The position numbers and the translations under genes were made by a program. The notes beneath the pieces were generated by a model. It did no database searches and had not been told where the DNA came from. It saw only the letters and a list, made by a program, of their open reading frames with translations. This document shows, one piece after another, positions 21,690 to 53,485 of a stretch of DNA of 64,000 nucleotides. Each line of letters begins with the position of its first letter. The stretch's first letter is position 1. Location of the stretch: assembly GCF_007273535.1 (NCBI RefSeq), contig NZ_RIBP01000001.1:124001-188000 (forward strand), in the 5' to 3' direction. The DNA comes from Niallia circulans (GTDB lineage Bacteria > Bacillota > Bacilli > Bacillales > Cytobacillaceae).

Positions 21690-24395
21690 ATGAAAAAAAC
21701 GGCGCATATTATCTCCCACACCCATTGGGACAGGGAATGGTACCTGCCTTTTGAACAGCATCGTTATTATTTCATAAATTTGATGAATAATTTGTTAGAG
21801 CAGTTTAAACAAGAGGGAAATGCATTTCAGTCATTCCATCTTGATGGCCAAACTGTTCTGTTGGAGGATTATTTTGCTGTTCATCCGGAAAATCGGGAGT
21901 CTGTTACACAATTAATTAACGAAGGAAAGCTGCATATTGGGCCATGGTATGTTCTGCAGGATGCGTTTTTAACAAGCTCAGAAGCAAATGTGCGAAACCT
22001 GCAAATCGGGTTACATGATGCGAAACAGTACGGGCATGTATCAAAAATCGGCTATTTCCCTGACACCTTTGGCATATACGGGCAAGCACCACAGCTTTTA
22101 AAGCAAGCGGGGATTGATACGGCTGCCTTTGGAAGAGGAGTAAAACCAACTGGCTTTGATAATATGGTGTCAGATTCTCCAAACTTTGAATCACCTTATT
22201 CAGAGATGATTTGGAAATCACCAGATGGCTCCAATGTCTTGGGGATTTTATTTGCTAATTGGTATTCAAACGGAAATGAAATACCTGTTGTTGAAGAGGA
22301 AGCGAAAATATACTGGAACCGAAAATTACAGGATGCCGAAAAGTATGCTTCCACCAATCAGTTATTGTTTATGAACGGATGTGATCACCAGCCGCTCCAA
22401 CATACAATTCCGCAGGCCATTAATGCTGCCGAGTCTCTTTTTCCTGATTATACCTTTAAGCATTCAAGCTTTGATGAATATATAACAGCTTTAAAAGAAA
22501 ACCTGCCTGAGCAGCTGCAGGTCATAGAAGGTGAATTGCGCAATCAAAGGACAGATGGATGGTCCACTCTTGTTAATACGGCGTCCAGCCGAATTTACTT
22601 AAAACAGTGGAATAATCGCTGCCAAACACTTTTAGAAAAGATTGCCGAACCACTTGCTGTGATGGACTTTTTAGCAGGGGGGAAATACCCAAGGGAATAT
22701 TTGCGCTTTATGTGGAAATCATTGATGAAAAATCATCCGCATGACAGTATCTGCGGCTGCAGTATTGATGAAGTGCACCGTGAGATGGTGACTAGATTTG
22801 AAACAGTAGCGCAAATGGGAGAGATATTTGTACAGAAGCATGCAGCACAGCTTGCTGATAAAGTTGATACCTCAGGCGGTCCAGAGGGCGGAATTCCCCT
22901 TATCGTTTTGAATACAACAGGCTGGGATAAAAACGAAGTTGTTACGAAAACAGTCGATTTGAAAGTAGTGTATTTCTCGGAAATGCATTTTGAACAAATT
23001 CCAGCCTATCTTAAAGAGGAAGAGATGTCAGCTTACAGACTTGTTGATGAAGCTGGCGATAATATCGATTGTTTTATGGAGGAACCAATTGTCGAGTTCG
23101 GGTACGACTTACCGGATGATAAATTCCGCCAGCCGTATTTTGCCAAACGAGCAAAGCTGTCTTTTTTTGCGGAGGAAATACCTGCATTCGGATACAAAAC
23201 ATTCTATCTTGTTCCGCATGAGCAGTCTGTTGGGGTGATGCAAGCACATTCCGTTAATAACGAAATGGATATGGAGAATGAATATGTTCACATCTTATTT
23301 CACGAAGATGGTACATATGATTTAACAGACAAAGCAACAGGAAAGACCTTAACTAAGCTTGGTATTTACGAAAATACTGGTGATGTTGGCAATGAATATA
23401 TGTTTAAGGAAGCAAATAACCATCCTCCGATAACGACAAAGGGTGTTCGAGCCGAGTTCCAACTCATTGAACGATCAGCTCTTAGAACAGTGCTTGAATT
23501 TACACATACTTTAACAATCCCTGCTGCAGCAGATGAGCAACTTGAGATAGAGAGGAACAGCTTGATTTGGCATAAGGAAAGGCAAGCAGGCAGATCTTCC
23601 GAAACAAAAACCATCACATTAAGGACAACAGCAACGCTCGAAAAAGGAATGAAGGGCCCAATATTTAAGCTGATAATTGATAATCAAGCAGCAGATCATC
23701 GTTTACGTGTTCTTTTTTCAACAAATTTGAAAACGGATACACACTATGCGGATAGTATTTTTGAAATTGCATCACGCCCAAATACACCGGATTCAGAATG
23801 GGAAAATCCAAGCTTTTGTCATCATCAGCAGCGTTTTGCCAGCATAGCAGATAACGAGGTCGGTTTAACCGTGGCAACGGATGGACTTCAAGAATATGAA
23901 ATCTTACAAGCAGATGGAACGCTTGCGGTCACAGTCTTACGTTCGGTTGCAGAATTGGGTGACTGGGGTCATTTTCCGACACCTGAGGCGCAATGTTTAG
24001 GTATTCAAGCAGCTGAGTGGCAAGTACTCTTGCATGAAAAGGATGTAATAACCGCGAAGGCATATGTTGATGCGTATCAATATAAGGTTCCCCTTCAGGT
24101 TATTCAAACAAATGCACATAAAGGAGCATTGCCAAGGAAATACAGATTTGTGAAGTGGGAGTCAGAGGGACTTGCATGGACGTCAATGAAAGTGGCAGAA
24201 GATAGTGATGATGTGATGGTGCGTTGGTATAACCCCGCCTCGTCAAGTGTACATCTGAAAGCATCCTTAGATTCAGCTGCCAATTCCTATCAGAGTACGA
24301 TTATCGAAGAACAAAGCAATCATACTAGCAATCAGTATGATGTTGCTGGCTATGAAATTATAACAATTGGCTTTCAAAAAGGAGAGAGACTATGA
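21690..24395 (+). CDS. GH38 alpha-mannosidase, 901-residue (streptococcal SpGH38/MngB-like) type
   Basis: A cytoplasmic retaining alpha-mannosidase without signal peptide. The zinc-site motif SHTHWDREWY gives ligands H12 and D14, and the likely nucleophile is D125 in GYFPDTFGIYGQ. KNHPHDSICGCSIDEVHREM is the conserved middle motif, and a GH38 C-terminal beta domain follows. Sequence type and exact length recall Streptococcus pyogenes SpGH38, an alpha-1,3-mannosidase, and E. coli MngB. It overlaps the GH125 gene by 4 bp (ATGA), indicating translational coupling; GH125 removes alpha-1,6-mannose, so the pair could strip both arms of the N-glycan core. The ribosome site is AAAGGCGGG. First gene of the operon. 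Confidence 0.9.
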   Translation: MKKTAHIISHTHWDREWYLPFEQHRYYFINLMNNLLEQFKQEGNAFQSFHLDGQTVLLEDYFAVHPENRESVTQLINEGKLHIGPWYVLQDAFLTSSEANVRNLQIGLHDAKQYGHVSKIGYFPDTFGIYGQAPQLLKQAGIDTAAFGRGVKPTGFDNMVSDSPNFESPYSEMIWKSPDGSNVLGILFANWYSNGNEIPVVEEEAKIYWNRKLQDAEKYASTNQLLFMNGCDHQPLQHTIPQAINAAESLFPDYTFKHSSFDEYITALKENLPEQLQVIEGELRNQRTDGWSTLVNTASSRIYLKQWNNRCQTLLEKIAEPLAVMDFLAGGKYPREYLRFMWKSLMKNHPHDSICGCSIDEVHREMVTRFETVAQMGEIFVQKHAAQLADKVDTSGGPEGGIPLIVLNTTGWDKNEVVTKTVDLKVVYFSEMHFEQIPAYLKEEEMSAYRLVDEAGDNIDCFMEEPIVEFGYDLPDDKFRQPYFAKRAKLSFFAEEIPAFGYKTFYLVPHEQSVGVMQAHSVNNEMDMENEYVHILFHEDGTYDLTDKATGKTLTKLGIYENTGDVGNEYMFKEANNHPPITTKGVRAEFQLIERSALRTVLEFTHTLTIPAAADEQLEIERNSLIWHKERQAGRSSETKTITLRTTATLEKGMKGPIFKLIIDNQAADHRLRVLFSTNLKTDTHYADSIFEIASRPNTPDSEWENPSFCHHQQRFASIADNEVGLTVATDGLQEYEILQADGTLAVTVLRSVAELGDWGHFPTPEAQCLGIQAAEWQVLLHEKDVITAKAYVDAYQYKVPLQVIQTNAHKGALPRKYRFVKWESEGLAWTSMKVAEDSDDVMVRWYNPASSSVHLKASLDSAANSYQSTIIEEQSNHTSNQYDVAGYEIITIGFQKGERL

Positions 24396-25750: not shown

Positions 25751-26374
25751 ATGAAAAAAGAACCATGGATGATTGTTGGTTGTGAATGGTTATGGCGGGG
25801 CATCTTTGTCAATTTATGCTGGATAGCCTTTACTGCTTTAGGATTAGGAGTTTTTGGGTTTTTTCCTGCTTCTGTTGCCCTGTTTACAATAGTCCGGAAA
25901 TGGCTGAGAAAAGAATCAGATTTCTCTGTATGGAAAACGTTTAAGGAAGTGTATATGAAAGAGTGGAAGCGAACGAATGGAATAGGCCTTGTGTTTTATA
26001 GCATTGGCCTGTTTCTTTATTTGGATCTGAGAATTATTGATAGCTTTATGTCCGGCATGCTTGCAAGCTTTCTCTCTACCATAATATCAATAATGATGCT
26101 GTTTTTGTTATTAGTTGTGTGCTATTTCTTCGCCGTCTATGTTCATTATGAGTTATCCAATAAAGAATATATTAAACAATCGCTTCTGTTCACGCTAACA
26201 AGTTTACCATCAACAATAGGAATTGCTGCCGGCCTTTTTGTTATTGGCAGCATGATAAATCAGATGCCTGGACTGATCCCGTTTATTTCTGCGGTGGCAC
26301 CGGCTTTTTGGATGATGAAGGTTTGCCTCAGCAGATTTACCTTTTTAGAAAAAAGGCTGCAACAGCAGTATTAA
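25751..26374 (+). CDS. DUF624 (YesL-like) membrane protein
   Basis: A 207-residue integral membrane protein with about five hydrophobic helices and the DUF624 signature (WLWRGIFVNLCWIAFTALG, then GFFPASVALFTIVRKW). These proteins, such as B. subtilis YesL, commonly accompany complex-carbohydrate ABC importers and YesM/YesN regulators, but their role is not known. Ribosome site AAAGGGTGG. It lies between the GH125 and GH20 genes in an unbroken operon, so it is probably involved in uptake or signalling of glycan fragments. Confidence 0.85.
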   Translation: MKKEPWMIVGCEWLWRGIFVNLCWIAFTALGLGVFGFFPASVALFTIVRKWLRKESDFSVWKTFKEVYMKEWKRTNGIGLVFYSIGLFLYLDLRIIDSFMSGMLASFLSTIISIMMLFLLLVVCYFFAVYVHYELSNKEYIKQSLLFTLTSLPSTIGIAAGLFVIGSMINQMPGLIPFISAVAPAFWMMKVCLSRFTFLEKRLQQQY

Positions 26375-26408: not shown

Positions 26409-28289
26409 GTGGAACTGTTCTTAAAAGGCGACACAGCAAATGTCGCTGCAGGTTTAGAATGTATGGCAAAACGATTAAAGGTGGAGCTGACTGCTAATGG
26501 TTATCCGATTGACGTGAAGCAGCAGAGGGGACCATTAAGGGTTGTCAATAAAAGTGGTGTTGGTGTAATTACGTTTGAAAAGCCTATCCATTTTTTTCGG
26601 GCATTAGGATTATGGCTGGAAAACTATCAAAAAAGCAAGGAGTTCGACAAACAGGAGACGCCACAATTTAAGATGAGCGGTGTCATGCTTGATGCATCGA
26701 GAAACGCGGTGCCAACAGTTAACGAAGTGAAAAAGCTGCTAGAACATATGGCGCTCATTGGTCTTGATACGTTAATGCTTTATACAGAGGATACATATGA
26801 GGTAAAGGAGTATCCTTATTTTGGATATATGCGGGGAAGATACACTCGTAATGAGCTCAAGGAGTGTGATCTATATGCGGAGATGCTTGGAATTGACATG
26901 ATACCTTGTATTCAAACATTAGGCCATATGCGGGAGGCCATCAAATGGAATTATGCTTCCACGATCAAAGATACAGACGATATCCTCCTTGTTGATGAAC
27001 CGAGCACCTATCAGTTTTTAGAAAACTGTCTTAAGGCTGTATCAGAGCCATTTCGCACAAACCGGATTCATATCGGCATGGACGAGACATTTCAGCTCGG
27101 CTTAGGGAAATTTTTAGAGAAGCATGGCTATGAACATCATATTGATTTAATGACCCGTCATCTCAAACAGGTTGTTGCGATAACAAACAAGCTTGGGTTA
27201 AAACCAATGATCTGGAGCGATATGTATTATCCCTTGTTTGCTGACAACAGCCCGTATATGGATGAGGATGGCAACATTCGGAAAGATATTCTAAGGGATA
27301 TTCCTGACGTGGAGTATGTTTATTGGAATTATTACCGCAAAGAACAGGAAGTGTATGAAGAGGATATTTACAAGCATAAGCTGCTTGGCGCAAAGCCAAT
27401 TTTTGCGGGAGGGGCATGGACTTGGAACGGACTTGCGCCAAACTACGGCAAGGCGATTGTTACAACAAATGCAGCACTTCCTGCCTGTAAAAAGGAAGGG
27501 ATTGATGAAATCTTTGTGACATTATGGGGTGATAACGGAGCAGAAACACCAATTTCAACCGCTTATCCAATGCTGCAACTATTTGCCGAGCACACTTACT
27601 GCAAGGATGTGACGATGGATGAAGTAGCAGAGCGTTTCGCCTTTTGCGGTGCAGGAGATTTTGAGGATTTTATGAATTTGAAATTATTAGATGAAACACC
27701 TGGTGTTATGGAAGATAACTTGAATTGCTCGATGACATCAAAAGTGCTGCTTTATCAAGATATTTTAATAGGTTTATACGATGAGAATATTCGTAGTCTA
27801 TCTCTTGGAAAGCACTATCAGCGCGTTATGGAAATGCTCAATAAAGGCAAACAGAAGAACCCGAACTGGGAAGCTTTATTTGATTTTTATGAACAGCTTG
27901 CTGCGGTTTTAGCGGACAAAGCCGAAATCGGTATTCAAGTGAAGGCTGCATATGAACATAAAGATTATGAAGAGATGAAGGCACTTCTGCTTATCTTGGA
28001 TAAAATAAGTGCGAATGTTGACCTGTTAAGACAAAAGCATCGCAGTCTTTGGTTTCAGGCAAACAAGCCATTTGGCTGGGAAGTAATAGATGTTCGTTAT
28101 GGCGGTGTTTTGGCTCGAATCGCTTCCGCTAAATTCCGATTGCAGGAGTGGATTAATGGGCGGATTTCTTTCATAGAGGAGTTAGAGGAAGTAAGAATGA
28201 CTCATGAAGGGCCATGGGAAATGGCTGATGGGATAGTCGGCGGCAATGTTTATCATCGTATCGTCACTGCCGGCAGCTTTTCCATTTAA
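26409..28289 (+). CDS. GH20 beta-N-acetylhexosaminidase, GH20C type
   Basis: A cytoplasmic 626-residue exo-beta-N-acetylglucosaminidase resembling pneumococcal GH20C. The N-terminal domain (about 1-85) is followed by the TIM barrel. The catalytic pair is D225-E226 in IHIGMDETFQLG, preceded by MIPCIQTLGHM, and MIWSDMYYP follows. No signal peptide is seen, so it acts on imported oligosaccharides, removing GlcNAc from trimmed or complex antennae. Translation starts at GTG 26409, fixed by AAGGAGG at 26394-26400. In pneumococcus GH20C is also encoded beside ROK, GH38 and GH125 genes. Confidence 0.87.
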   Translation: MELFLKGDTANVAAGLECMAKRLKVELTANGYPIDVKQQRGPLRVVNKSGVGVITFEKPIHFFRALGLWLENYQKSKEFDKQETPQFKMSGVMLDASRNAVPTVNEVKKLLEHMALIGLDTLMLYTEDTYEVKEYPYFGYMRGRYTRNELKECDLYAEMLGIDMIPCIQTLGHMREAIKWNYASTIKDTDDILLVDEPSTYQFLENCLKAVSEPFRTNRIHIGMDETFQLGLGKFLEKHGYEHHIDLMTRHLKQVVAITNKLGLKPMIWSDMYYPLFADNSPYMDEDGNIRKDILRDIPDVEYVYWNYYRKEQEVYEEDIYKHKLLGAKPIFAGGAWTWNGLAPNYGKAIVTTNAALPACKKEGIDEIFVTLWGDNGAETPISTAYPMLQLFAEHTYCKDVTMDEVAERFAFCGAGDFEDFMNLKLLDETPGVMEDNLNCSMTSKVLLYQDILIGLYDENIRSLSLGKHYQRVMEMLNKGKQKNPNWEALFDFYEQLAAVLADKAEIGIQVKAAYEHKDYEEMKALLLILDKISANVDLLRQKHRSLWFQANKPFGWEVIDVRYGGVLARIASAKFRLQEWINGRISFIEELEEVRMTHEGPWEMADGIVGGNVYHRIVTAGSFSI

Positions 28290-28313
28290 TCTTGTTATGT
28301 AGGGGTGAAAAAT

Positions 28314-31300
28314 ATGTTTTTAGTAGAAAGAAAGTTTGAAGAGCGCATAAAAGAACTGGCAGGTTACCGCTATCGAGACTTTACAGAAATCTCTTCATTT
28401 CACATACAGGAGGATGATGGGGAAATCGGTGCTTATCCGCCAACAAGCTATAATAGTCAAAAAAAGATGAATATCGGTGACTATTGGCAAGGACGCGATC
28501 GTTATCTTTGGCTTCATGCAGAGATTGATACTCATCTGCCATTTGCCGATCAACAGGTCGCAGGTCTGTTTTCATTTGGAAAAACTGGCGGCGGAAATAA
28601 CTCCGGCTTTGAATCTTTGTTATTTGTTAATGGCAAGCCTTATCAAGGTGTTGATTCCAATCATGAAGAGGTTCTTTTCGATGAAGAGACAGCAAAAGAA
28701 CCGATTATGTTAGATTTCCGGCTTTGGTCAGGGCTTGAAGGTGGAGGCGTTCCTGTTCAAAATGAATTTAAGCTCGAAAATGCTGCGATTGGCTGGCTAG
28801 ATCGCCGTGTAGATAACTTATATTACACACTTCTAGCGGCATTTGAGGTGCTAACAGAAACAAGTGAATCAGATTCGGCTTATACTATCTTAAAAAAATT
28901 GATTTCTGATGCACTTAAGCAAATTGATTGGACAGAGCCAGGCAGCAATGAGTTTTACCAGTCTTGTTATGCGGCAGACGAAAGTGTTACTGAGGCGCTG
29001 CAATCTATAGATAAAACTTCTGATATCACCATTCATACTGTCGGTCATACCCATATTGATGTAGCATGGCTTTGGCGTTTAAAGAATACGAGGGAGAAAT
29101 CTGCTCGTTCGTTTTCAACGGTATTGCATTTGATGAAGCAGTTTCCTGATTACTTATTCCTGCAAACACAGCCACAGCTCTATGACTATCTAAAATGCGA
29201 TTATCCTGATATTTACGCTCAAATTAAAGAAAGAGTTACAGATGGCAAATGGGAAGCAGGCGGGGCGATGTGGCTGGAGGCGGATTGTAATATTCCGAGC
29301 GGAGAATCGCTTGTCCGCCAAATCCTCCACGGCAAAAATTATTTCAAAGAAGAGTTTGGTGTTGACTGTGAATACTTATGGCTGCCAGATGTGTTTGGCT
29401 ATAGCTGGGCATTGCCGCAGATTTTGATAAAATCGGGCATCAAAACAATGATGACGACGAAAATCAGCTGGAACCAATATAACCGCATGCCTCATGATAC
29501 CTTTTATTGGAAAGGCATGGATGGCACGGAAATCTTAACCCATTTCATTACTACACCAGAGCCGTGGAATTCTGCCGATTCATGGTTCTATACCTATAAT
29601 GGCTTTATAACAGCGAAAACAGTAAGTGGTGCTTGGAAAGGGTACCGAGACAAGGAGTTATCAAAGGATTTGCTGCTTTCCTATGGCTATGGTGATGGCG
29701 GTGGCGGCGTTAATCGTCATATGCTTGAAATGCGCCGGCGTTTTGATAAGCTGCCAGGTATGCCGAACGTGAAAACATCCACAGCAGGAGAATTTTTTGA
29801 AAAGCTGCACCAAAATGTAGCGGAAGCGGATGGCTATATTCATAAATGGGATGGTGAGCTATACCTGGAATATCATCGCGGTACCTATACGAGCCAGGCA
29901 TTTATGAAGCAGATGAATCGGAAATTAGAGCTGTCATACAGACGAGCCGAATTCCTGACAGCTTGGCTTTCGGAAAGTGGTCAGTGGTACGGAAGGGAAG
30001 AGCTTAACGATGGCTGGAAAATCATCCTGCGTAATCAATTCCATGATATTATTCCTGGCTCCTCCATTCATGAAGTATATGAGGATGCTAGAGAAGAATA
30101 CAAGGAAGCACAAGAGATAGTTCAGAATGTAGAAGCCAATATAATGGATCGGAGCATGGAGAGAAATGACCATTCTGTTGTGTTAGTTAATGCAGCCGGA
30201 AGCATTGGAAAAAGAAATGTAAAGATCCCTTCTATTACTGGTGTTAAAGAAGGTGTTTGGAAAAACAGCAAAGGCGACATCGTACCGCAGCAAAAACAAA
30301 ATAATGGCTGGATGATTGAGGTTAATAACCTGCCATCCTTTGGTGCAATGAACTTATATTTTGAGGAAAATACAGTTCCGGAGAAAAAATCGAACTTCTT
30401 CTATCAAAATCGAAAACTAGAAACACAGTATTATACAGTGGAGTGGAATGAGTATGGTCAAATAACGTCCTTGTTTGATAAGCAGGCAAATCGCCAAGTG
30501 CTTAGCAGTGGTCAAAAGGGAAATGTGCTGCAAATATTTGAGGATAAGCCACTCGCCCATGACGCTTGGGATATTGATATTTTTTATCAAGAAAAAATGG
30601 AAGAAATCCGTCATTTAGATGAGTTTGAGGTAGTCGAAAATGATGAACTGTCGTTTGCTATTAATGCGAAGTGGTCCTATCATCATTCTGACATTTCCCA
30701 GCGCATCGTCTTTTATCACAATGATCGCCGAATTGATTTTGAAACAACAGTTAATTGGCATGAAAAGCGAAAATTACTGAAAAGTGCCTTCCCTGTTGAT
30801 ATTCGGGCAACAGAGGCAACCTATGATATACAATTTGGCAATGTGAAGCGACCAACCCATTGGAATACTAGCTGGGATATGGCTAAATTTGAGACGGTCG
30901 GTCATCAGTGGGCAGACCTGTCAGAGCCGGATTATGGGGTCAGTCTGCTGAACGATTCTAAATATGGCTATGACATTAAAGAAAATACGATGCGAATTAC
31001 GTTACTAAAAGCAGCCATACATCCAGATCCCCATGCAGATCAAGGGACACATTCGTTTGTGTATTCACTTTACCCTCATATTGGTGATTGGCGCGAAGCA
31101 AGGACCGTGGAGAAAGCATATGATTTGAACGACCCTGTAAAGGTATTTGCAGGTACGGAGACGAAAGAAGCGTCCTTTTTAGAAATGGATGCCAATCATG
31201 TTTGGATAGATGCGATTAAACCAGCATACGATGGCAACGGAATGATTATTCGTCTGCATGAATACGAAGGGCGAAGAGGCAATGTGACACTAAATGTCTT

Positions 31301-31421
31301 AAAGAACCATTTGTCTTGGGTTGAAACGGATTTGATGGAGGAACCGATTGGAGAATATGCTGTCACTCCTATTAAGTTTGACATCAAGCCATATGAGATT
31401 AAAACCTTTAGAATTTTATAA
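28314..31421 (+). CDS. GH38 alpha-mannosidase, long cytosolic (MAN2C1-like) type
   Basis: A 1035-residue cytoplasmic alpha-mannosidase. An N-terminal beta domain (about 1-235) precedes the catalytic domain, with zinc motif GHTHIDVAWLW (H247, D249) and likely nucleophile D359 in WLPDVFGYSWALPQI. YGYGDGGGGVNRHM and QFHDIIPGSSIHEVYEDA are typical of the MAN2C1/AMS1 branch, which digests free high-mannose oligosaccharides in the cytosol. ATG 28314 fits AGGGG at 28301-28305; a GTG at 28305 overlaps that site. It ends the first glycosidase operon, with a strong terminator after it. Confidence 0.9.
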   Translation: MFLVERKFEERIKELAGYRYRDFTEISSFHIQEDDGEIGAYPPTSYNSQKKMNIGDYWQGRDRYLWLHAEIDTHLPFADQQVAGLFSFGKTGGGNNSGFESLLFVNGKPYQGVDSNHEEVLFDEETAKEPIMLDFRLWSGLEGGGVPVQNEFKLENAAIGWLDRRVDNLYYTLLAAFEVLTETSESDSAYTILKKLISDALKQIDWTEPGSNEFYQSCYAADESVTEALQSIDKTSDITIHTVGHTHIDVAWLWRLKNTREKSARSFSTVLHLMKQFPDYLFLQTQPQLYDYLKCDYPDIYAQIKERVTDGKWEAGGAMWLEADCNIPSGESLVRQILHGKNYFKEEFGVDCEYLWLPDVFGYSWALPQILIKSGIKTMMTTKISWNQYNRMPHDTFYWKGMDGTEILTHFITTPEPWNSADSWFYTYNGFITAKTVSGAWKGYRDKELSKDLLLSYGYGDGGGGVNRHMLEMRRRFDKLPGMPNVKTSTAGEFFEKLHQNVAEADGYIHKWDGELYLEYHRGTYTSQAFMKQMNRKLELSYRRAEFLTAWLSESGQWYGREELNDGWKIILRNQFHDIIPGSSIHEVYEDAREEYKEAQEIVQNVEANIMDRSMERNDHSVVLVNAAGSIGKRNVKIPSITGVKEGVWKNSKGDIVPQQKQNNGWMIEVNNLPSFGAMNLYFEENTVPEKKSNFFYQNRKLETQYYTVEWNEYGQITSLFDKQANRQVLSSGQKGNVLQIFEDKPLAHDAWDIDIFYQEKMEEIRHLDEFEVVENDELSFAINAKWSYHHSDISQRIVFYHNDRRIDFETTVNWHEKRKLLKSAFPVDIRATEATYDIQFGNVKRPTHWNTSWDMAKFETVGHQWADLSEPDYGVSLLNDSKYGYDIKENTMRITLLKAAIHPDPHADQGTHSFVYSLYPHIGDWREARTVEKAYDLNDPVKVFAGTETKEASFLEMDANHVWIDAIKPAYDGNGMIIRLHEYEGRRGNVTLNVLKNHLSWVETDLMEEPIGEYAVTPIKFDIKPYEIKTFRIL

Positions 31422-31576: not shown

Positions 31577-31590
31577 TGTAAGTGCTTACA
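31577..31590 (+). promoter_or_regulatory. CcpA cre site before the glycan ABC transporter
   Basis: TGTAAGTGCTTACA matches the 14-nt cre consensus at 13 positions and is nearly palindromic. It lies 24 bp before the first permease start codon, where CcpA binding would repress uptake in the presence of preferred sugars. Confidence 0.65.
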
Positions 31591-35095: not shown

Positions 35096-35259
35096 CATCT
35101 ATATAGTTATATGACTTCGATCCTTCCTATTGTATAAACCATGAACTGTTACCTTAAAATAGCGGGGGGATTGGAACTAAAAACACCACAATCATCTGAC
35201 TCAATTAGCATAGTTGATTGCTGGCAATACAAATAATCAATAGGAAGAGGAGAAGTGAA

Positions 35260-40143: not shown

Positions 40144-40159
40144 GAAAGAAGTGATGATG

Positions 40160-44773: not shown

Positions 44774-44787
44774 TGGAAGGGCTTACA
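44774..44787 (+). promoter_or_regulatory. Candidate cre site before GH85
   Basis: TGGAAGGGCTTACA matches the cre consensus at 12 of 14 positions, with an intact right half identical to the cre before the ABC transporter (GCTTACA). It lies 158 bp before the GH85 start. Confidence 0.35.
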
Positions 44788-44944
44788 TTTTGCCTGTTTT
44801 ATAGCTGGTGTAAACAATATGTGTGAATGGAGGTGAAGCGATCACTCATTCAATCTTAATGGGCAGCTATTGATTAATGCAGAAAGCAATCCTTAACTTC
44901 TTTTGTTATTACATACATTCGTTACAAATAAGGGAGGCATATGG

Positions 44945-47944
44945 ATGTTTTCGAAATGGAGAAAAACGAAAAAGACACTAATCGTCACGGTTATAATGCT
45001 GTTTATGCTGCAGGCAGGCTTGTCTCCGGCATTGGCGGGGGATACATTTCCATTTACTGGTGAAAGTGCAACTGGTTTGAATCAGCCGACACAGCATGGA
45101 TATACGGTGAATCACATTTTAGATTGGACACCAGAAACAGATAAAAATGCTGACATGCTTAGGTCGAGAGTGCCGTTACAAGAGCGAAATCAAGCATTTG
45201 CTGCTACACAGGCAAACCCGGAGATAAGCGCGGATACGCAAATGTTTAATCTTGCTGGTGACTATGGGAATGCTTTTTTGGACAGTACGGCATATACGAA
45301 TAAGTTTGGTCAATATACGTTTCCGTACTGGCAGTATGTCGATTATTATTCGTATTGGCATGGAACAGCGTCAGCAGATGTTCCAGATTATTTATATAAT
45401 CCGAGCCTTCCATGGTATGAAAGATGGTTTGAATTTGGGGCATTAAATATTCCAAATCCTGCTTATACGAATGCAGCCCATAAAAACGGGGTTAAATCAC
45501 TCGCGGTTATTTTCTTCTCAGATAATGATAGGGGACCACAGACATATTCACAAATGTTTGTTAAAGACAAGGACGGCAAATTCCCTGTTGCTGAAAAGCT
45601 CGTTGAAATGGCGGAATACTATGGGTATGATGGTTATTTCTTTAATCAGGAGGAAGCAAGTGCAGGGGTTGCTGTTAAGGATATTCCTGTATATAAAGAG
45701 TTTTTAAAGGCAATTAAACAAAGCGGCCTATATGTGCAGTGGTACGATTCAGTTGATAATACAACAGGCAAAACAAGATATGAGAACGAATTCACGGCTG
45801 TCAATAGTCCGTTTGTCAAGGATTCAAAATACGGCACTTTGACTGACTCAATTTTCTTAAACTATCTTTGGAATAAACAAAAGCTGGAGAAGTCTAAAGC
45901 CCATGCAGAAAGCTTAGGATTAGATCCTTTACAAACTGTGTTTGCAGGTGTTGAAGCAGGTGGAGACAGATTTAATAAACAGCGCAATGATTTACGAAAT
46001 AATTTGGACAGCAACAAAAAGCCGATGAATAGTATTGCTATGCTCGGATCTGACTTTACTCATCATGCCTTGGATGAGGATCTGGGCGGAGAAGATACGA
46101 ATCGACGTAATAACAGTGACTACCAATGGATGTCTTTTATTCGTGACAGAGCATGGTGGAGCGGTCCTAATCTTGACCCAACAAACCCAGGCAGAAACGC
46201 AGATGCTAAGCTTACAGATGTTGCAGCAAAAGGAGATAACTGGGACGGTGTTGCTTCCTATATAGCTGAGCGCAGTGTCATTCAAGGCTCTAACTTTGTG
46301 TCCAACTTTAACATGGGCCGAGGCTTAGATTACTATGTAAATGGCAAGCTAAGCAATAAAGATGAATGGTCAAATATTAATATTCAAGACATTCCGGTCA
46401 CATGGCAATGGTGGATGGATACAACTGGAACACCGCTGCAGGCAGATTTTGATTTTGGTCCTGATTACAATACAGGGGCAAGATACAGCTATCAAAAGGT
46501 TGGTGCCTTTAATGGCGGAAGCTCGCTTGTTGTGAATGGTTCATTGGATGCCGAAAACCTATTGCATCTTTATAAAACCGATTTACAAGTGAAAAAGAGC
46601 TCGAAGTTTTCAATTACCTATAACAAACCATCTGAAGATGATTCATCAGTTATGAGTATCGGCTTATTCTTTAAAGATAATCCTGAAAAGGCAGTGAAAG
46701 TGGAAGTGCCTAATTCCGGTAAAAAAACGAATGGCTGGGTAACAGCAAATCTTGACCTGTCCAAATATGCAGGCAAAGAGCTTGCTGCATTTGGGATTGT
46801 GTTTGCGAATGGAGAACAAGAACAGATAGCTGATTATCAGATGAATATCGGGCAAGTGAAAATAAGTGATGGCTCGATAAAAAAACCGAAGGCTCCGACT
46901 GAGCTTAAAATAACAGAAGCATTAAGTGACTCGAATGAAATGTATATCGCTTGGAAGCTGGAAAACTATGAGAATGTGAAGCAATACAATGTCTATAACA
47001 ATGGAGTTTTTGTTGGCGGCGTTTATGACGAAGTATTTTACATCAAAAACTTGCAGAATTTATCTGGTGATATTTCTCTGACAGCTGTTAGCCAAGACGG
47101 TCAAGAAAGTGCACCTGCTGTTGTGAAATATGATTTAACAAAGGGTGTACAAAACATTAAAGCAACTCAAGCAGATAATGGTGATATGGTCGTTTCATGG
47201 CAAAATCCCAAAAATGTGGATGGGAAAATTACCGTGAATATTGCAACAGAGTTCGACTATGCAAAGAAAGTGAATAAAACGGTCACCGTAAAAAACGGCA
47301 AAACAGAGGTGACGCTCCCTAATATGCCGCTAAATGGAGATAAATATCAGCTTAAAATAAGAATCGGCAGCCAAAACTGGATTAGCTATCGCAGTACGTT
47401 TTTTGACAAAACGATAGAAGCGTATCCAGCAGAAAAGGTCACTATTGATGGGAATTCTGTTAAGTGGAATTTACCTAATACGAGAGATTGGCACCATATA
47501 TATGTATATGAAAATGGCGAAGCCAAAACATTTGATACGACCTACAGTCAAGGCAAAAGGCCTTATATTGTGCGAGGGCGCACGCATTTAAAGGAGCTCA
47601 CCTTCCAAACGAAAGCAACAGACAGCATCCTTGAATTTGTGATAGAGGATTATTCAGGTAATAAAGCGACAACAGTAATCAGAATGAACTTAGACGATCT
47701 TTATAGTAAAATCAATGATTTTGTTGCTAGTGGTGAATTGACTGAGTCAGCTGGAAAGCAATTAACAAAAGTCTTGAACGCTGCCAAGAAGCATTATGAA
47801 GAAGATCGTTTAAAGCAAGCAGCAACCCAAATGAAGAAATTTAAGGATGAAATAAACAGTAAGCAAATGAAGGATATGGCAGACGGCGCAAAAACTACAT
47901 TAATAGCGAGTGCCGATTATTTCCTAAGAAATATGTCGAAGTAA
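44945..47944 (+). CDS. Secreted GH85 endo-beta-N-acetylglucosaminidase with FIMAH domain
   Basis: A 999-residue exported enzyme that cuts N-glycans between the two core GlcNAc residues, releasing the glycan from glycoprotein. A signal peptide (about 1-31, ending SPALA) leads to the GH85 barrel (about 120-500), with the catalytic Asn-x-Glu N234/E236 in DGYFFNQEEASAG, as in EndoD and Endo-A. Beta-sandwich and fibronectin-like domains follow (about 500-915). The last 80 residues (INDFVASGELTESAG, QLTKVLNAAKKHYEEDRLKQ) look like a FIMAH domain; there is no LPxTG anchor. ATG 44945 fits GGGAGG at 44932-44937. It is the only secreted glycosidase of the locus, so it starts the pathway outside the cell. 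Confidence 0.92.
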   Translation: MFSKWRKTKKTLIVTVIMLFMLQAGLSPALAGDTFPFTGESATGLNQPTQHGYTVNHILDWTPETDKNADMLRSRVPLQERNQAFAATQANPEISADTQMFNLAGDYGNAFLDSTAYTNKFGQYTFPYWQYVDYYSYWHGTASADVPDYLYNPSLPWYERWFEFGALNIPNPAYTNAAHKNGVKSLAVIFFSDNDRGPQTYSQMFVKDKDGKFPVAEKLVEMAEYYGYDGYFFNQEEASAGVAVKDIPVYKEFLKAIKQSGLYVQWYDSVDNTTGKTRYENEFTAVNSPFVKDSKYGTLTDSIFLNYLWNKQKLEKSKAHAESLGLDPLQTVFAGVEAGGDRFNKQRNDLRNNLDSNKKPMNSIAMLGSDFTHHALDEDLGGEDTNRRNNSDYQWMSFIRDRAWWSGPNLDPTNPGRNADAKLTDVAAKGDNWDGVASYIAERSVIQGSNFVSNFNMGRGLDYYVNGKLSNKDEWSNINIQDIPVTWQWWMDTTGTPLQADFDFGPDYNTGARYSYQKVGAFNGGSSLVVNGSLDAENLLHLYKTDLQVKKSSKFSITYNKPSEDDSSVMSIGLFFKDNPEKAVKVEVPNSGKKTNGWVTANLDLSKYAGKELAAFGIVFANGEQEQIADYQMNIGQVKISDGSIKKPKAPTELKITEALSDSNEMYIAWKLENYENVKQYNVYNNGVFVGGVYDEVFYIKNLQNLSGDISLTAVSQDGQESAPAVVKYDLTKGVQNIKATQADNGDMVVSWQNPKNVDGKITVNIATEFDYAKKVNKTVTVKNGKTEVTLPNMPLNGDKYQLKIRIGSQNWISYRSTFFDKTIEAYPAEKVTIDGNSVKWNLPNTRDWHHIYVYENGEAKTFDTTYSQGKRPYIVRGRTHLKELTFQTKATDSILEFVIEDYSGNKATTVIRMNLDDLYSKINDFVASGELTESAGKQLTKVLNAAKKHYEEDRLKQAATQMKKFKDEINSKQMKDMADGAKTTLIASADYFLRNMSK

Positions 47945-48037: not shown

Positions 48038-51000
48038 TTGTCACTGGAAAGAATACAGCGATTTATTCAGCACTTAGGGAAGTTTGAAGTTTTAGAATCG
48101 ATTCAAATGAAGGATTGGCAGGCAAAACGTGGAGTTTATGTGGAGCCGGGTAAATATGAATTTAACTCAAATGAAACAGTTCTAATTAATGAAGGTGATT
48201 GGCTGATTGATGCTGGTGCCACGATGTTTTTGGAAAAGGAAGTTTCGATTCCAGCCAACTGGAGAAATCGTCCATTCGGTCTGACGTTCCATTCCAGTGC
48301 AGAGGGGCGCCGAACTCTTCATGAGGGGCTCGTTTCTATTAATGGCATGCCACATCATGGAATTGACCGTAACCGCAATTACGTCCCTTTCCCAGAAGAT
48401 TCGCGAAATTTAGAAAAAATTACCATTATAATCGAATTATATAATTATGCCGGCCAAACCCTTGATGAGTTAAATTATCAAAATGAACCAGCAGAATTTG
48501 ATCCGCCACCGTTAACCCTTTTACAAAGCAGTCTTGATTTAGTTAATAGCGCTGTGCAAAGTTTGCTTGCAACAGTGAAGTGTTACTTTGAAACAGCGAA
48601 ACTACTGCCTGAAGGTAATATAGACAAATCCACTATCATCACGGCTTTGACAGAGGTGGAACGGAAAATATTGTCCGCAAAGCCAGCAGCGTTAACAGAT
48701 ATTTCGTTGGTTGCAGAAATAGAAGAAACTTTAATGGAAAGGCTTGCAGATTTGTCTGACAGCACGAACGGACAAATGCTGATGGTAGGTCAGTCTCATA
48801 TTGATTTGGCTTGGCTTTGGCCTGTTAAGGAAGCAATCCGTAAGTGCAGCAGAACCTTCTCAACAATGAGCACACTACTCGAGGAGAATCCGAATTTTAC
48901 TTATGCACAAAGCCAGCCCCAAGCGTATGCCTTTGTTAAAGAGCATTACCCTGACATCTATGAAAGGGTGAAAAAGCATATTGCCGATGGACGCTGGGAG
49001 GTTGTCGGTGGAATGTGGGTGGAGCCTGATTTAAATATGCCGTCAGGTGAAGCTTTGGTTCGTCAGCTGCTGTATGGCATGAAGTTTTATAAGGAGGAAT
49101 TCGGCGTTCAGCCAAGAATTGAATGGCTTCCAGATACATTCGGCTATTGTGCGTCACTGCCACAATTGTTAAAGGGAGCTGGAATTGATTACTTTATGAC
49201 ATCAAAAATGAATTGGAATGATACGAACCCTTTTCCGTTTGATTTATTTTATTGGGAAGGAATCGACGGCACGAGAATCCTGTCCTTTTTGAATCATGGC
49301 TTAAATGAATATACACATCCACAAGAAATTCAAAGCCATTGGGATAGTTATAAGCAAAAAAACATCCATCCGCACCAAATGCTGCTTTACGGCCATGGAG
49401 ATGGCGGCGGCGGAGTTACGCAGGAAATGATTGATTATGTTGATCGGTCTGCTTCCTTGCCTGGCTTACCTTCTGTCGTCAACAGTACCGCACATGAATT
49501 TTTTGATGGAATCACAGCGAAAAATCCGCCCTTGCCAGCATGGGTTGGTGATATGTACTTAGAGCTTCACCGCGGAACATATACAACACATGCCCGCAAC
49601 AAAAGATGGAATCGGAAAGCAGAGGTTCTTTACCGAGATGCGGAAATTTGGGAAAGCGTCGCTGCAAACTTTGCAGGTGCAAACCATGATTCTTCATTGG
49701 AGCATGGCTGGAAGCTGCTTCTGCTCAATCAATTTCATGATATTATTCCTGGATCATCCATTCCAGAGGTATATATTGATTCGGAGTCTGATTATAAAGA
49801 GATTTTTGTATGCGGGGAAAAGGTAAGAAATGCTGCATTACAGGAGCTGGAACAGCAAATTAACACAGAAGGCGACGGGATACCTTTTGTGATCTTTAAC
49901 AGCCTGTCATGGGAGAGGGCTGAAACAGTTAGCATCACTGGAGGGTTAGAATTGGCAGGCAAAGGTGCCGTCAATCAAGATGGCGAAGTGTTGCCAACAG
50001 AGATAATTCAAAAGGAAGATGGTCAATTGGAGCTATCTGTTTATGTTCCAGCCATCCCAGAAATGGGCTATAAGGTCATTTGGCTGCAGGATTTGGAGAA
50101 TATCCAAAGTAATAAACAAGAGCAAGCTGCACGCGATTGGGAAACAGATTATTATCTTGTGGAATGGAACGAACTCGGAGAAATTACTCGTTTATATGAC
50201 AAAAACTTACGACGAGAGGTATTGAATGATGGAGCTTGCGGAAATCAGTTCCAGCTTTTCCATGACAGACCGATGCTGTGGGATGCATGGGATATCGATC
50301 CGAACTTTGCAGAACAGCAAGCAGAAACGATTAGCCTTTTAGAGCAGAGCAGCACTAAGGGTGCAACGAAGGATATCATTTGCTTTAAATGGCAGCTTGG
50401 TCAATCAGTTATTGAACAAGATATGATTTTATATCACCACAATAAACGAATTGATTTTCAAACGAAAGTCGATTGGCACGAACAGCATAAATTATTAAAG
50501 GTTGCTTTTCCAGTTGATGTGATGAGCAGCAAAGCAACATATGAAATTCCGTTTGGAACGGTAGAGAGAGCGACACATTCAAACACAAGCTGGGAGCAAG
50601 CACAGTTTGAAGTATGTGGACACAGATTCGCTGACCTGTCTGAAGCAGGGTACGGTGTCAGCTTGCTGAATGACTGCAAATATGGCTATGATGTGAAACA
50701 AAATGTATTGCGTTTATCCTTATTGCGGGCACCAAAATGGCCTGACAAGGGAGCAGATATTGGCCTTCATGAATTCACCTATTCCCTTTTCCCGCATGAA
50801 GGGGAATGGAGAGAAGCTGAAGTAGTGAAGCAAGGCTATGAACTGAACCACCCTGTTGTCGTTTTAAAGTCGACAGCACATCTTGGAAGTCTTCCAAATT
50901 CGTATTCCTTCATAAAAACTGAAGCTAAACAAGTTATTCTTGATACGGTGAAACAATCTGAGAATGGCAATGGTCTTACGCTAAGAATGTACGAAACGAG

Positions 51001-51163
51001 TGGTGGCAGAGAGCAAATTCAGCTTTCTTTGGCTGAGCAGGTTCATTCTGCATATGAAACAAATTTGTTGGAAGAGAAACAAGCAGATATTTCTCTGGAA
51101 GGCAATAAGCTGTCGGCAGCATTAAAGCCATATGAAGTAAAAACAATTGTCGTAAACCTGTAG
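48038..51163 (+). CDS. GH38 alpha-mannosidase, long cytosolic type, second copy
   Basis: A 1041-residue cytoplasmic alpha-mannosidase of the same branch as the one at 28314, clearly related but diverged. The zinc motif is GQSHIDLAWLW (H254, D256; Gln replaces His in the first position of the GHTH form), nucleophile D366 is in WLPDTFGY, and YGHGDGGGGV and NQFHDIIPGSSIPEVY are conserved. There is no signal peptide. Translation starts at TTG 48038, fixed by TAGGAGGG at 48023-48030. It stands between GH85 and GH3 and probably takes a different alpha-mannosidic linkage from its paralogue. Confidence 0.9.
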   Translation: MSLERIQRFIQHLGKFEVLESIQMKDWQAKRGVYVEPGKYEFNSNETVLINEGDWLIDAGATMFLEKEVSIPANWRNRPFGLTFHSSAEGRRTLHEGLVSINGMPHHGIDRNRNYVPFPEDSRNLEKITIIIELYNYAGQTLDELNYQNEPAEFDPPPLTLLQSSLDLVNSAVQSLLATVKCYFETAKLLPEGNIDKSTIITALTEVERKILSAKPAALTDISLVAEIEETLMERLADLSDSTNGQMLMVGQSHIDLAWLWPVKEAIRKCSRTFSTMSTLLEENPNFTYAQSQPQAYAFVKEHYPDIYERVKKHIADGRWEVVGGMWVEPDLNMPSGEALVRQLLYGMKFYKEEFGVQPRIEWLPDTFGYCASLPQLLKGAGIDYFMTSKMNWNDTNPFPFDLFYWEGIDGTRILSFLNHGLNEYTHPQEIQSHWDSYKQKNIHPHQMLLYGHGDGGGGVTQEMIDYVDRSASLPGLPSVVNSTAHEFFDGITAKNPPLPAWVGDMYLELHRGTYTTHARNKRWNRKAEVLYRDAEIWESVAANFAGANHDSSLEHGWKLLLLNQFHDIIPGSSIPEVYIDSESDYKEIFVCGEKVRNAALQELEQQINTEGDGIPFVIFNSLSWERAETVSITGGLELAGKGAVNQDGEVLPTEIIQKEDGQLELSVYVPAIPEMGYKVIWLQDLENIQSNKQEQAARDWETDYYLVEWNELGEITRLYDKNLRREVLNDGACGNQFQLFHDRPMLWDAWDIDPNFAEQQAETISLLEQSSTKGATKDIICFKWQLGQSVIEQDMILYHHNKRIDFQTKVDWHEQHKLLKVAFPVDVMSSKATYEIPFGTVERATHSNTSWEQAQFEVCGHRFADLSEAGYGVSLLNDCKYGYDVKQNVLRLSLLRAPKWPDKGADIGLHEFTYSLFPHEGEWREAEVVKQGYELNHPVVVLKSTAHLGSLPNSYSFIKTEAKQVILDTVKQSENGNGLTLRMYETSGGREQIQLSLAEQVHSAYETNLLEEKQADISLEGNKLSAALKPYEVKTIVVNL

Positions 51164-51202: not shown

Positions 51203-53485
51203 ATGGTTCATTTTAATCAAGCGCACGAAACGGAAAAAAGCCAAGTTGAAGCATTATTAGCTAAAATGACATTAAAGGAAAAGGTTGGCCAGGTTAATCA
51301 AAAGCTGTATGGCTGGGAGGTCTACGAAAAAACAGACACTGGCTATGTTCTAACGGAAAAGTTTAAAGAACATGTACAGCGATGGGATGGAATTGGTGTT
51401 CTTTATGGTTTATTCCGTTCTGATCCATGGTCTGCCATTCATTTTGACAATGGCATAACAGAGGATGCGAGTGCTGAAGTAGCCAATATGATCCAGCAAT
51501 ATGTCAAGGATAATACAAGACTAGGCATACCAGTTCTGTTATCAGAAGAATGCTCCCACGGTCATCAAGGCTTAGATAGTATGATAACACCTGTCAATTT
51601 AGGAGTTGGTGCAACGTGGAATCCAGAGCTGCATCAGAAACTAATGGCAGCTGTTGCAGAGGAAGTCCGTGCAAAAGGGGCTCATCTTGCACTCGTCTCG
51701 ACATTGGATATTTTGCGTGATCCGCGCTGGGGTAGATCAGAGGAATGCTTTAGTGAGGATCCTTTTCTTGCCTCAGAGCTAACAAAGGCTGTCGTTAAAG
51801 GGATGCAAGGGAAGCAAGCTGAGTTTATTGAAGAGGGGAAAATGATTGCAGTATTAAAGCATTTCGCGGCACAGGGAAACGGTACGGGTGGCAAAAATGC
51901 CGCACCGGCTTCCATTGGCGAAAGAGAATTGAGGGAAATTCATTTGCCGCCGATGAAAACGGCTATCCAATCAGGTGCCCTTGCCTGCATGGCCGCCTAT
52001 AATGAAATTGATGGCATTCCCTGCCATGCTAACGGTTATCTCCTTCAGCAAATTTTGAGAGAGGAATTGGGGTTTAATGGTGCAGTTATGGCTGACGGCT
52101 GCGCACTCGATAATTTAGTTGCCTTAACGGAAAGCACGGAAAAGGCAGCAGCTTTAGCACTTGAAAGTGGTGTAGACATAAGCCTGTGGGATGATGTGTA
52201 TATTGCTTTAGATTCTGCAGTTGAATTAGGGCTTGTTAGTGAGGAAAAGCTGAATGATGCTGTAAGAAGAGTGCTGACACTTAAATACAAAATGGGGTTG
52301 TTTGCAAATCCTTTCGTGGAAGAGAAACCACAGAGAGATGAGGAACAGGCAGACAAAATTAATCTGGAATCAGCTCGACAATCGATTGTGCTGTTAAAAA
52401 ACAATGGTATTCTCCCATTGAAAAAGGAGTTAAAAAGAATTGCGGTCATTGGACCGAATGCAGATGCCAGTTATAATCAGCTTGGTGATTATACACCGTT
52501 TCAAAGGGAAAGCAGAGTCAGCACCGTCTTCAAGGGGATTGCTTCATTGGTAAAAGACGCAGAGGTGGTGTATGAACAGGGTTGCGGCATTCGTTCTGGC
52601 AACGAGGAAGGACTGGAAAAAGCGGTTCGTCTTGCCAGAAGCTCAGATGTTGCTGTTGTTGTTTTAGGCGGTTCAAGTGCAAGGGATTTTACTGCCCAGT
52701 TTGATTTGAACGGTGCTGTTATTAATACAACTGGTGAGGAAGAGATGGATTGCGGCGAAAATGTCGATACTGCCGATTTGGAGCTTGGTGGTCTGCAGCT
52801 AAAGCTTTTGCAAAGGGTAATGGAAACAGGGACACCTGTTGTCGTGGTACTGATTTCTGGCAGACCTCATGCGATTCCGTGGATTGCAGAACATGCTCCA
52901 GCAATCTTAAGCGCATGGTACCCAGGGCAAATGGGCGGTCAGGCCATTGCGGAAATTTTATTTGGAAAAGTAAACCCGAGCGGAAGATTGCCTGTCTCCA
53001 TCCCAAGGTCTGCCATGCAGCTGCCTGTTTTTTATAATTACAAGGATGGAGGATACAAGAAGGACTATTTTGATATGTCTGGTAATGCTTTATATCCGTT
53101 TGGTTTTGGACTTTCTTATACAGATTTCGTATATGATAATCTCCAGATTACAAGACCAGCAATTACAGCAGAAAGGCTAGCGGCTGGGGAAAAGTTCTGT
53201 ATCTCTGTTAAGGTTACAAATGTTGGAAATAATGACGGTTATGACGTGCTTCAGCTTTATATAAAAGGGAAGGCTGGTAGTATTATCAGGAGAGTTAAGG
53301 AATTAAAAGGCTTTAAGAAGGTATGGCTTGCGGCAGGAGAAACAAAAGAAGTTTGCTTTGAGCTTGGAGCAGAGGAGTTACAAGTGTTCAGCAGCCAAAA
53401 CACTTATAAGGTGGAACAGGGGGAGATTGAAATAGAGGTTGGTAATCCTCGCAGCTGCTTAAATGCTGTCTTAAATGTCAGTTGA
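51203..53485 (+). CDS. GH3 beta-glycosidase of the N-glycan locus
   Basis: A cytoplasmic 760-residue GH3 enzyme with the usual order: TIM barrel (about 15-370), alpha/beta sandwich with KNNGILPLKK and GPNAD (about 375-620), and a C-terminal fibronectin-III domain. The nucleophile is D298 in GAVMADGCALDN; the common SDW triad is here ADG, an unusual variant that changes the +1 side of the pocket. KH-FAAQGNGTGGKN is the substrate loop and is not the NagZ histidine motif, so a beta-N-acetylglucosaminidase is unlikely. It may act on the beta-mannosyl core bond or another beta-glycoside. GGTGGG precedes the ATG. Confidence 0.88.
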   Translation: MVHFNQAHETEKSQVEALLAKMTLKEKVGQVNQKLYGWEVYEKTDTGYVLTEKFKEHVQRWDGIGVLYGLFRSDPWSAIHFDNGITEDASAEVANMIQQYVKDNTRLGIPVLLSEECSHGHQGLDSMITPVNLGVGATWNPELHQKLMAAVAEEVRAKGAHLALVSTLDILRDPRWGRSEECFSEDPFLASELTKAVVKGMQGKQAEFIEEGKMIAVLKHFAAQGNGTGGKNAAPASIGERELREIHLPPMKTAIQSGALACMAAYNEIDGIPCHANGYLLQQILREELGFNGAVMADGCALDNLVALTESTEKAAALALESGVDISLWDDVYIALDSAVELGLVSEEKLNDAVRRVLTLKYKMGLFANPFVEEKPQRDEEQADKINLESARQSIVLLKNNGILPLKKELKRIAVIGPNADASYNQLGDYTPFQRESRVSTVFKGIASLVKDAEVVYEQGCGIRSGNEEGLEKAVRLARSSDVAVVVLGGSSARDFTAQFDLNGAVINTTGEEEMDCGENVDTADLELGGLQLKLLQRVMETGTPVVVVLISGRPHAIPWIAEHAPAILSAWYPGQMGGQAIAEILFGKVNPSGRLPVSIPRSAMQLPVFYNYKDGGYKKDYFDMSGNALYPFGFGLSYTDFVYDNLQITRPAITAERLAAGEKFCISVKVTNVGNNDGYDVLQLYIKGKAGSIIRRVKELKGFKKVWLAAGETKEVCFELGAEELQVFSSQNTYKVEQGEIEIEVGNPRSCLNAVLNVS

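Follow-up and report, generated by a model that had tools for sequence, protein, structure and literature searches.

Can a free-living bacterium hold within one stretch of DNA what is needed to take eukaryotic N-glycans apart, and how would it deal with the core of the glycan? This question is raised by a 32-kb block of genes (positions 21690-53485) within a 64,000-nucleotide stretch of Niallia circulans DNA, hereafter the window, from a genome of 5.46 Mb. From its gene families and their setting, we consider that this block, taken as a whole, very probably encodes the complete breakdown of eukaryotic N-glycans. Compared with the streptococcal system, the block is an enlarged variant in a free-living organism, and two points in it are new and testable: a proposed core step in which a kinase acts first, and a putative xylose cassette.

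Organisation of the locus and proposed pathway

Twenty window proteins were scanned with Pfam models, and it is to this set that all family negatives given below for the window refer. Every named family of the locus exceeded its Pfam cut-off, in agreement with the assignments made in an earlier sequence-only reading of this DNA. The genes of the block, in order and with a gap between the ROK and glycoside hydrolase family 85 (GH85) genes, are:

21690..24395, + strand: GH38A, SpyGH38-like cytosolic α-mannosidase, probably α-1,3 (Pfam GH38 domains; PDB 3lvt, E 5e-254; 2wyh, E 6e-246)
24392..25723, + strand: GH125 exo-α-1,6-mannosidase (PF06824, E 2e-155)
25751..26374, + strand: DUF624 (YesL-type) membrane protein (PF04854)
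26409..28289, + strand: GH20C, cytosolic exo-β-N-acetylhexosaminidase (GH20 and PF18088, GH20C_C, E 1e-61; PDB 2epk, 6e-107; 5a69, a GH20C, 2e-100)
28305..31421, + strand: GH38B, long-form α-mannosidase of 1038 aa (GH38 domains, with the domain set of GH38C)
31614..32543, + strand: ABC permease 1, NgtP-like by context (PF00528)
32592..33575, + strand: ABC permease 2, NgtP-like by context (PF00528)
33597..35051, + strand: solute-binding lipoprotein 1 (SBP1), NgtS homologue with lipobox LSAC (DUF3502; 5swa/5suo/5mlt, E 3e-88 to 2e-86)
35218..36714, + strand: solute-binding lipoprotein 2 (SBP2), NgtS homologue, its true start probably 3' of the listed TTG (PF01547, DUF3502; aligned to SBP1)
36849..38645, + strand: YesM-type sensor kinase (PF06580, HAMP)
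38638..40143, + strand: YesN-type AraC response regulator (PF00072, PF12833)
40124..41551, + strand: GH1, proposed 6-phospho-β-mannosidase for phosphorylated Man-β1,4-GlcNAc (PDB 4b3k/5foo, E 1e-156; motif; paralogue linked to a phosphotransferase system, PTS)
41575..42471, + strand: ROK kinase, A type, proposed Man-β1,4-GlcNAc kinase (PDB 4htl, E 3e-47, then 2gup; GEFGC)
44903..47944, + strand: GH85 endo-β-N-acetylglucosaminidase with a start that looks by eye like a signal peptide and a C-terminal FIMAH domain (PF03644, E 1.6e-67; FIMAH, 2.5e-17; N248-Q-E250)
48038..51163, + strand: GH38C, Ams1-like long α-mannosidase (Pfam GH38 domains; Ams1 7vqo, E 2e-152; 6lz1, E 1e-139)
51203..53485, + strand: GH3, β-xylosidase-like, proposed β-1,2-xylosidase, no signal peptide by eye (PDB 7zb3, E 5e-153; EEC/EES motif)

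Two MFS genes flank the block. The sequence-only reading had described consecutive same-strand operons: all the families do lie on the + strand at the positions it gave, but unrelated small genes interrupt them at ~42.5-44.9 kb.

Families and context together suggest the first three steps of a pathway. Firstly, the apparently secreted GH85 would, as expected from its family, cleave between the two core N-acetylglucosamine (GlcNAc) residues of glycoproteins. Secondly, the two NgtS-type lipoproteins and the two permeases would take in the released Man(n)GlcNAc with the help of a shared ATPase. Thirdly, in the cytosol, GH20C would strip antennary GlcNAc while GH38A, GH38B, GH38C and GH125 would strip the α-mannoses and GH3 would probably remove β-1,2-xylose where present. 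In a fourth step, the ROK kinase would phosphorylate Man-β1,4-GlcNAc on its mannose and GH1 would split the product into mannose-6-phosphate (Man6P) and GlcNAc, after which ManA would route Man6P into glycolysis. The YesMN pair would sense a product of the pathway and turn the locus on.

Release by GH85 and uptake of the glycan

The window GH85 scores 228.6 bits against the PF03644 cut-off of 22.2. Asn-x-Glu, which we take to be the catalytic pair of the family, is present in 61 of 63 aligned GH85 sequences, the remaining two having no coverage of the site. For the GH85 enzymes characterised so far, N-glycans are the only substrates described in a review (PMC10154615).

Both binding proteins are homologous to NgtS of Streptococcus pneumoniae, the structure of which was solved with Man1GlcNAc and Man5GlcNAc (PMC5215778). 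NgtS numbering was transferred with an offset of 23, which fits both Trp81 and Trp386. The position of Trp81, which contacts the terminal α-1,6 mannose, is Trp in all 23 aligned binding proteins, and all 23 have Tyr or Phe at the position of Trp386, which in NgtS stacks against the Man-GlcNAc core. SBP1 itself retains Trp81 and has Tyr380 in place of Trp386. Given this homology, the transporter is best read as an importer of the Man(n)GlcNAc that GH85 releases. The block contains no ATPase gene for the importer, so that a shared ATPase must presumably serve it. The tandem NgtS-like binding proteins (33597-36714) go with a single permease pair and perhaps take different glycan sizes. Together with GH38A, GH125, GH20C and the YesMN-type pair, the GH85 Asn-x-Glu and the NgtS-type binding proteins bear out the earlier proposal of N-glycan foraging.

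Trimming of α-mannose and GlcNAc

The closest PDB relatives of GH38A are 3lvt and 2wyh, the latter of which we take to be SpyGH38, while GH38C is closest to Ams1; GH20C resembles the pneumococcal enzyme in the PDB comparison. No GH92 (PF07971) was matched genome-wide at E 0.001, which extends the absence noted in the sequence-only reading to the whole genome; the scanned window proteins gave no match to GH29 or to any sialidase or galactosidase family. S. pneumoniae is thought to apply GH92 extracellularly, ahead of EndoD. In a genome without GH92, GH85 may either take α-1,2-mannosylated glycans directly, leaving GH38B and GH38C to trim them inside, or act on small glycans only. Demannosylation after import, with three GH38 and one GH125, is described for Bifidobacterium longum (PMC10154615).

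Conservation and distribution

Gene order is identical in four other genomes of the genus, with protein identities of 76-100%, although in one of these (G011) the contig stops at the binding-protein genes. The nearest named relative in our scan is Niallia taxi, the GH125 of which is 98% identical. GH85 is present in 5 of 13 genomes of a genus sample and over cut-off in 14 of 299 genomes drawn from the order, 8 of them, the window's genome included, with strong matches (E 6e-56 or better).

A scan of named genomes through GH125 gave 63 loci, mostly from Bacillus-like genera by title. Of these, 58 span 18 kb or more; 47 of the 58 hold a GH38A, GH125 and GH38B core, and 40 of the 47 show GH85 at a distance of no more than 10 kb; the seven core loci with no GH85 in view include N. 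taxi, whose GH85 sits outside the view. The grouping exceeds what chance would give, GH85 being uncommon in the order and yet frequent at these core loci. The N-glycan locus is not special to this organism, and its core recurs across many Bacillus-like genera. Two GH85 types occur in 5 of the 58 long loci, and that several GH85 lineages accompany the same core argues that N-glycan release is the constant function. Neobacillus drentensis JC05 (L051, L159) has three distinct GH85 types in a single N-glycan locus. In the Shouchella shacheensis locus (L090), GH38A is short, through decay or a draft error.

These data bear on whether the food could be another mannan, such as yeast α-mannan or a mannosylated polysaccharide, or a β-glycan. 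We hold this to be very improbable. The GH3 and GH1 families do act on plant glycans too, and three relatives carry GH38C and GH3 beside GH29, one of them near a sulfatase, with no adjoining GH85. Set against this are the restriction of characterised GH85 enzymes to N-glycans, the NgtS-type binding proteins, and the frequency of GH85 at core loci. An α-mannan locus was also rejected on gene content: no GH76, GH99 or GH92 model matched among the scanned window proteins, in addition to the genome-wide absence of GH92.

Cleavage of the Man-β1,4-GlcNAc core

What, then, becomes of the core disaccharide? The families known to cleave its β-mannose bond are GH2, GH5_18 and GH130, according to the review (PMC10154615). 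In Robb et al. 2017, the fate of Man1GlcNAc in S. pneumoniae is given as unknown, with no β-1,4-mannosidase candidate found, and a 2018 paper repeats this gap. The sequence-only reading had listed GH1 and ROK, whose genes are 23 bp apart, but gave them no role. We propose that Man-β1,4-GlcNAc may be phosphorylated by ROK and the product split by GH1 into Man6P and GlcNAc, a proposal to which we give something close to, but not above, an even chance. Alternatively, within the same N-glycan locus, ROK would be an ordinary kinase for mannose or GlcNAc, and unphosphorylated Man-β1,4-GlcNAc would be cleaved by GH1 as a plain β-mannosidase; this we regard as a realistic option, though not a probable one.

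For GH1, the nearest solved relatives are 5foo, deposited as a 6-phospho-β-D-glycosidase, and the near-identical 4b3k, deposited as a β-glucosidase; we take both to be SPy1599 of Streptococcus pyogenes. 6-phospho enzymes bind phosphate through Ser and Tyr, where β-glucosidases have Glu and Phe, and the Ser/Tyr-containing motif DNWSW.N.[YF]KNRYG is kept in 49 of 49 rows of the GH1 clade (47 distinct sequences). These rows include a paralogue in the window's genome (L215), which is 65% identical and lies after a PTS EIIC gene of the lactose/cellobiose family (591 bits vs a cut-off of 434). Both the motif and its presence in this PTS-linked paralogue speak against a plain β-mannosidase. On the other side, the best NCBIfam model of GH1 is the plain β-glucosidase BGL (431 vs 478 bits), and known β-mannosidases are found in the GH1 family (PMC6160142).

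The nearest PDB neighbours of ROK, the β-glucoside kinase 4htl and then 2gup, share its GEFG[CY] motif, while the His of ExGH is kept in the glucokinases 3vov and 3vgk and in 5nck. This histidine is missing in 15 of 15 A-type ROK sequences, to which the window gene belongs. Many relatives have a second, B-type ROK, best matched by glucokinase and N-acetylmannosamine kinase models, whereas the A type is best matched by BglK. This difference in best models and the missing histidine count against A-type ROK as an ordinary kinase, although the B type, too, has no such histidine beside its GE.G (Asn in 7 of 9). In favour of an ordinary kinase, free mannose from GH38 and GH125 needs one, and ROK also matches glucokinase and GlcNAc kinase models of its family, all below cut-off.

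Gene neighbourhoods link the two enzymes. Around the GH1 clade gene of 46 loci (52 rows minus six repeats of the same gene), ROK alone occurs within 2.6 kb in 32 (A type in 29), EIIC alone in 5, both in 1 and neither in 8. Five of the latter have ROK elsewhere in the locus (L098, L099, L108, L130, as seen in L211, and L210). No PTS gene linked to the window GH1 was found among the scanned window proteins. GH1 was also paired with GH125: a raw count of 33 of 44 contains two false pairs on different contigs (G331, G361) and one doubtful pair (G357), and the other 30 are on agreeing contigs in 22 cases and paired by coordinates alone in 8. A further 13 such loci were viewed directly, among them that of Caldalkalibacillus mannanilyticus (L102), where GH1 is in two pieces through decay or a draft error. 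As for the fate of the product, manA lies inside the locus in four relatives, with a Pfam type I phosphomannose isomerase match in 4 of 4 and TIGR00218 over cut-off in the 2 scanned; in the window's genome it lies elsewhere, where it was detected by TIGR00218 and missed by a PF01238 search. In S. pneumoniae, the TCS07 regulon includes the GH1 BglA3, a ROK and ManA, and in S. gordonii, S. cristatus and S. iniae the bglA3 gene directly follows tcs07 (PMC7075642), although it is not strictly co-inherited with tcs07. Together, the enzyme families, the motif, the paralogue, the ROK linkage, manA and the TCS07 regulon favour phosphorylation by ROK followed by cleavage by GH1.

A number of observations weigh against this proposal. 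SPy1599 is not known to act on phosphomannosides, and the motif Lys precedes its LacG-type position by one residue. Neither GH1 nor ROK reaches the cut-off of any NCBIfam model: GH1 scores 355.7 vs 610 and 305.5 vs 561 bits with the 6-phospho models, the PTS-linked paralogue being likewise under (382 vs 610), and ROK 177 vs 550 bits with BglK (NF042998), its best model. SPy1599 itself has been cited as a 6-phospho-β-glucosidase. Most GH1 loci were reached through GH125, so the draw is biased and the ROK link is partly a link to the locus. Three GH1 loci (L151, L096, L147) show neither EIIC nor ROK. At E 1e-130, GH1 is unmatched in 6 of the 43 GH125-bearing genomes searched, one of which, S. 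shacheensis (G367), has GH85 and the transporter. Finally, a GH2 β-mannosidase can escape PF02836, as does the one with mannosidase Ig domains in Gracilibacillus (L101), so a GH2 enzyme may sit elsewhere in the window's genome.

Of the families known for the core bond, GH130 and GH2 were considered as other candidates for the core step. The genome's own GH130 was rejected, as NCBIfam identifies it as a β-1,2-mannobiose phosphorylase (620 vs 550 bits); its gene (L216, G000:C3:648000-662000) is near a DUF1861 gene, a sugar-binding protein and a LacI regulator. GH2 is weakened: there are four PF02836 matches, and the two scanned (L121, L122) have no mannosidase Ig domains. The genome has 26 GH1 matches; the final two are incomplete and lie near each other, so they may be fragments of a single gene. 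Among the open-licence papers searched, the term 6-phospho-β-mannosidase is absent, and no title or abstract opening presents such a kinase step.

A GH85-GH38C-GH3 cassette

The sequence-only reading had also named GH3 and left it with no function. In a family sample of 193 genomes, GH85 of the window type (at least 73% identity) occurs in 10 and GH3 (E 1e-200) in 13. GH38C and GH3 adjoin the window-type GH85 in 10 of 10 genomes, while GH3 is found in 3 of the 183 others (Fisher p = 2e-14 for co-occurrence, relatedness ignored). In Sediminibacillus halophilus, a binding protein is followed by GH3 and GH38C, with a 45% identical GH85 next to them on the opposite strand.

The best PDB match of GH3 is the β-xylosidase 7zb3 (514 bits), the next other enzyme reaching 418 bits. 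In 16 of 16 relatives, the Glu of the EEC/EES motif replaces an Asp of the β-glucosidase-like 3u48. A GH3 of Bacteroides massiliensis takes β-1,2-xylose off plant N-glycans after removal of the α-1,3 mannose (PMC9522356). Together, the PDB match, the Glu, the co-occurrence and this parallel suggest that xylosylated, plant-type N-glycans are the substrates of the GH85-GH38C-GH3 cassette. A 2023 review knows of no GH85 for such glycans (PMC10154615).

However, GH3 may be a β-glucosidase or another exo-enzyme, the GH38C-GH3 pair only widening mannosidase capacity, and we rate this just short of an even call. GH3 specificity is not fixed by sequence alone, and 5z87 (EmGH1), which does not carry a xylosidase name, has the same Glu. 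GH3 lies below all NCBIfam cut-offs, including that of its best model, the curated xylosidase (524.8 vs 1050 bits), with the β-glucosidase BglX second (476 bits), and several further PDB matches are named β-glucosidase. Against this stand the margin of the best PDB match, the uniform Glu, and the locus of Gracilibacillus dipsosauri, where GH38A, GH125, GH29, GH3 and GH38C are accompanied by a GH2 with mannosidase Ig domains, a set that suits plant N-glycans. At that locus GH1 and ROK are not shown and the importer is of another type, a clade GH1 being found elsewhere in the genome, behind EIIC (L150).

The three remaining GH3 genes of the family sample (L206, L207, L208) stand beside GH38C and GH29 α-L-fucosidases and not beside GH85, L206 being near a sulfatase. 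This pair possibly belongs to a separate pathway for fucosylated or sulfated glycans, and such copies show that GH38C-GH3 may also act on other glycans. The sequence-only reading had favoured high-mannose or hybrid glycans as food; these do fit, but because the cassette points to xylosylated N-glycans they are not the sole fit.

Control of expression

Permease 1 and GH85 are each preceded by a palindrome resembling the catabolite-responsive element (cre):

31577..31590, + strand: cre-like site TGTAAGTGCTTACA in the transporter promoter
44774..44787, + strand: cre-like site TGGAAGGGCTTACA in the GH85 promoter

At permease 1, 20 of 33 upstream regions of relatives agree with the consensus at 12 or more of its 14 positions, vs 3 of 188 controls, which were upstream regions of other genes in the same loci, many of them inside operons. 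A stricter cre pattern gave two matches in the window, about the expected number, neither of them at the permease 1 or GH85 promoters. When five upstream regions were compared in pairs by their 16-mers, no response-regulator motif common to all promoters emerged; two pairs reached 14/16, namely the permease 1-GH85 palindrome and an A/T-rich GH38A-GH85 match. The two-component pair carries YesMN-type domains by Pfam. The cre-like sites suggest catabolite repression at the transporter and GH85 promoters.

The region between ROK and GH85

The break in the block, at 42472-44902 of the window, is an apparent insertion hotspot, which holds an orphan Imm6-like gene and a 120-aa open reading frame on the - strand with no Pfam match:

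42700..43155, + strand: Imm6 immunity-like gene, an intruder outside the pathway (PF14434, E 1e-19; not seen here in G002, G005, G006 and G011)

In another Niallia genome (G005, L030), the same gap contains a ThiF-family protein, two ABC ATPases, an ABC-2 permease and a GHKL kinase, an insert that looks like one for a ribosomally synthesised and post-translationally modified peptide or bacteriocin. In a third (G006), ROK and GH85 are separated by ~340 bp.

Relation to known systems

The system of S. pneumoniae (CPL, EndoD, NgtS-P1-P2 and TCS07) shares with the window GH85, GH38, GH125, GH20C, ROK, a two-component regulator and an NgtS-type importer without its own ATPase. It differs in that here there is a single locus, with three GH38 instead of one and an added GH3, no GH92 in the genome and no GH29 in the scanned window proteins; EndoD is wall-anchored, whereas the GH85 here looks secreted. 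The earlier description of the locus as larger than the streptococcal one is thus right for the mannosidases, GH1 and GH3 and not for GH92, GH29, sialidase or galactosidase. The SPy1599 cluster of S. pyogenes has the GH1 nearest by sequence (4b3k/5foo), and the GH38 2wyh, presumably the neighbour of SPy1599, resembles GH38A; this cluster is not known to contain a GH85, and no physiological substrate is known to be assigned to SPy1599. The high-mannose operon of B. longum likewise groups three GH38 with GH125 for demannosylation after import; the families known for the core bond are GH2, GH5_18 and GH130 (PMC10154615), where we propose GH1 and ROK for the window. The plant N-glycan pathway of B. 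massiliensis is likened to the window by the described β-1,2-xylosidase role of its GH3, and differs in release by PNGase and demannosylation by GH92 in place of GH85 and GH38 (PMC9522356).

Taken jointly, the two new points would mean that Firmicutes finish N-glycans kinase-first, by ROK and then a GH1 6-phospho-β-mannosidase, with the pneumococcal CPL ROK and BglA3 acting alike, and that the GH85-GH38C-GH3 genes form a module for xylosylated plant-type glycans; for both to be true together is a tentative claim, on balance somewhat doubtful. As GH1 and ROK accompany the N-glycan genes in most Bacillus-like loci, the Man1GlcNAc gap becomes a question about two enzymes and, if the proposal is true, a kinase-first step by the CPL ROK and BglA3 would close the gap in the S. 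pneumoniae pathway. With the GH3 cassette, it also becomes possible to test whether an organism with GH85 uses plant N-glycans, and the cassette is a source of enzymes for editing glycoproteins. Free-living bacilli widely carry a system that has mostly been studied in streptococci adapted to a host.

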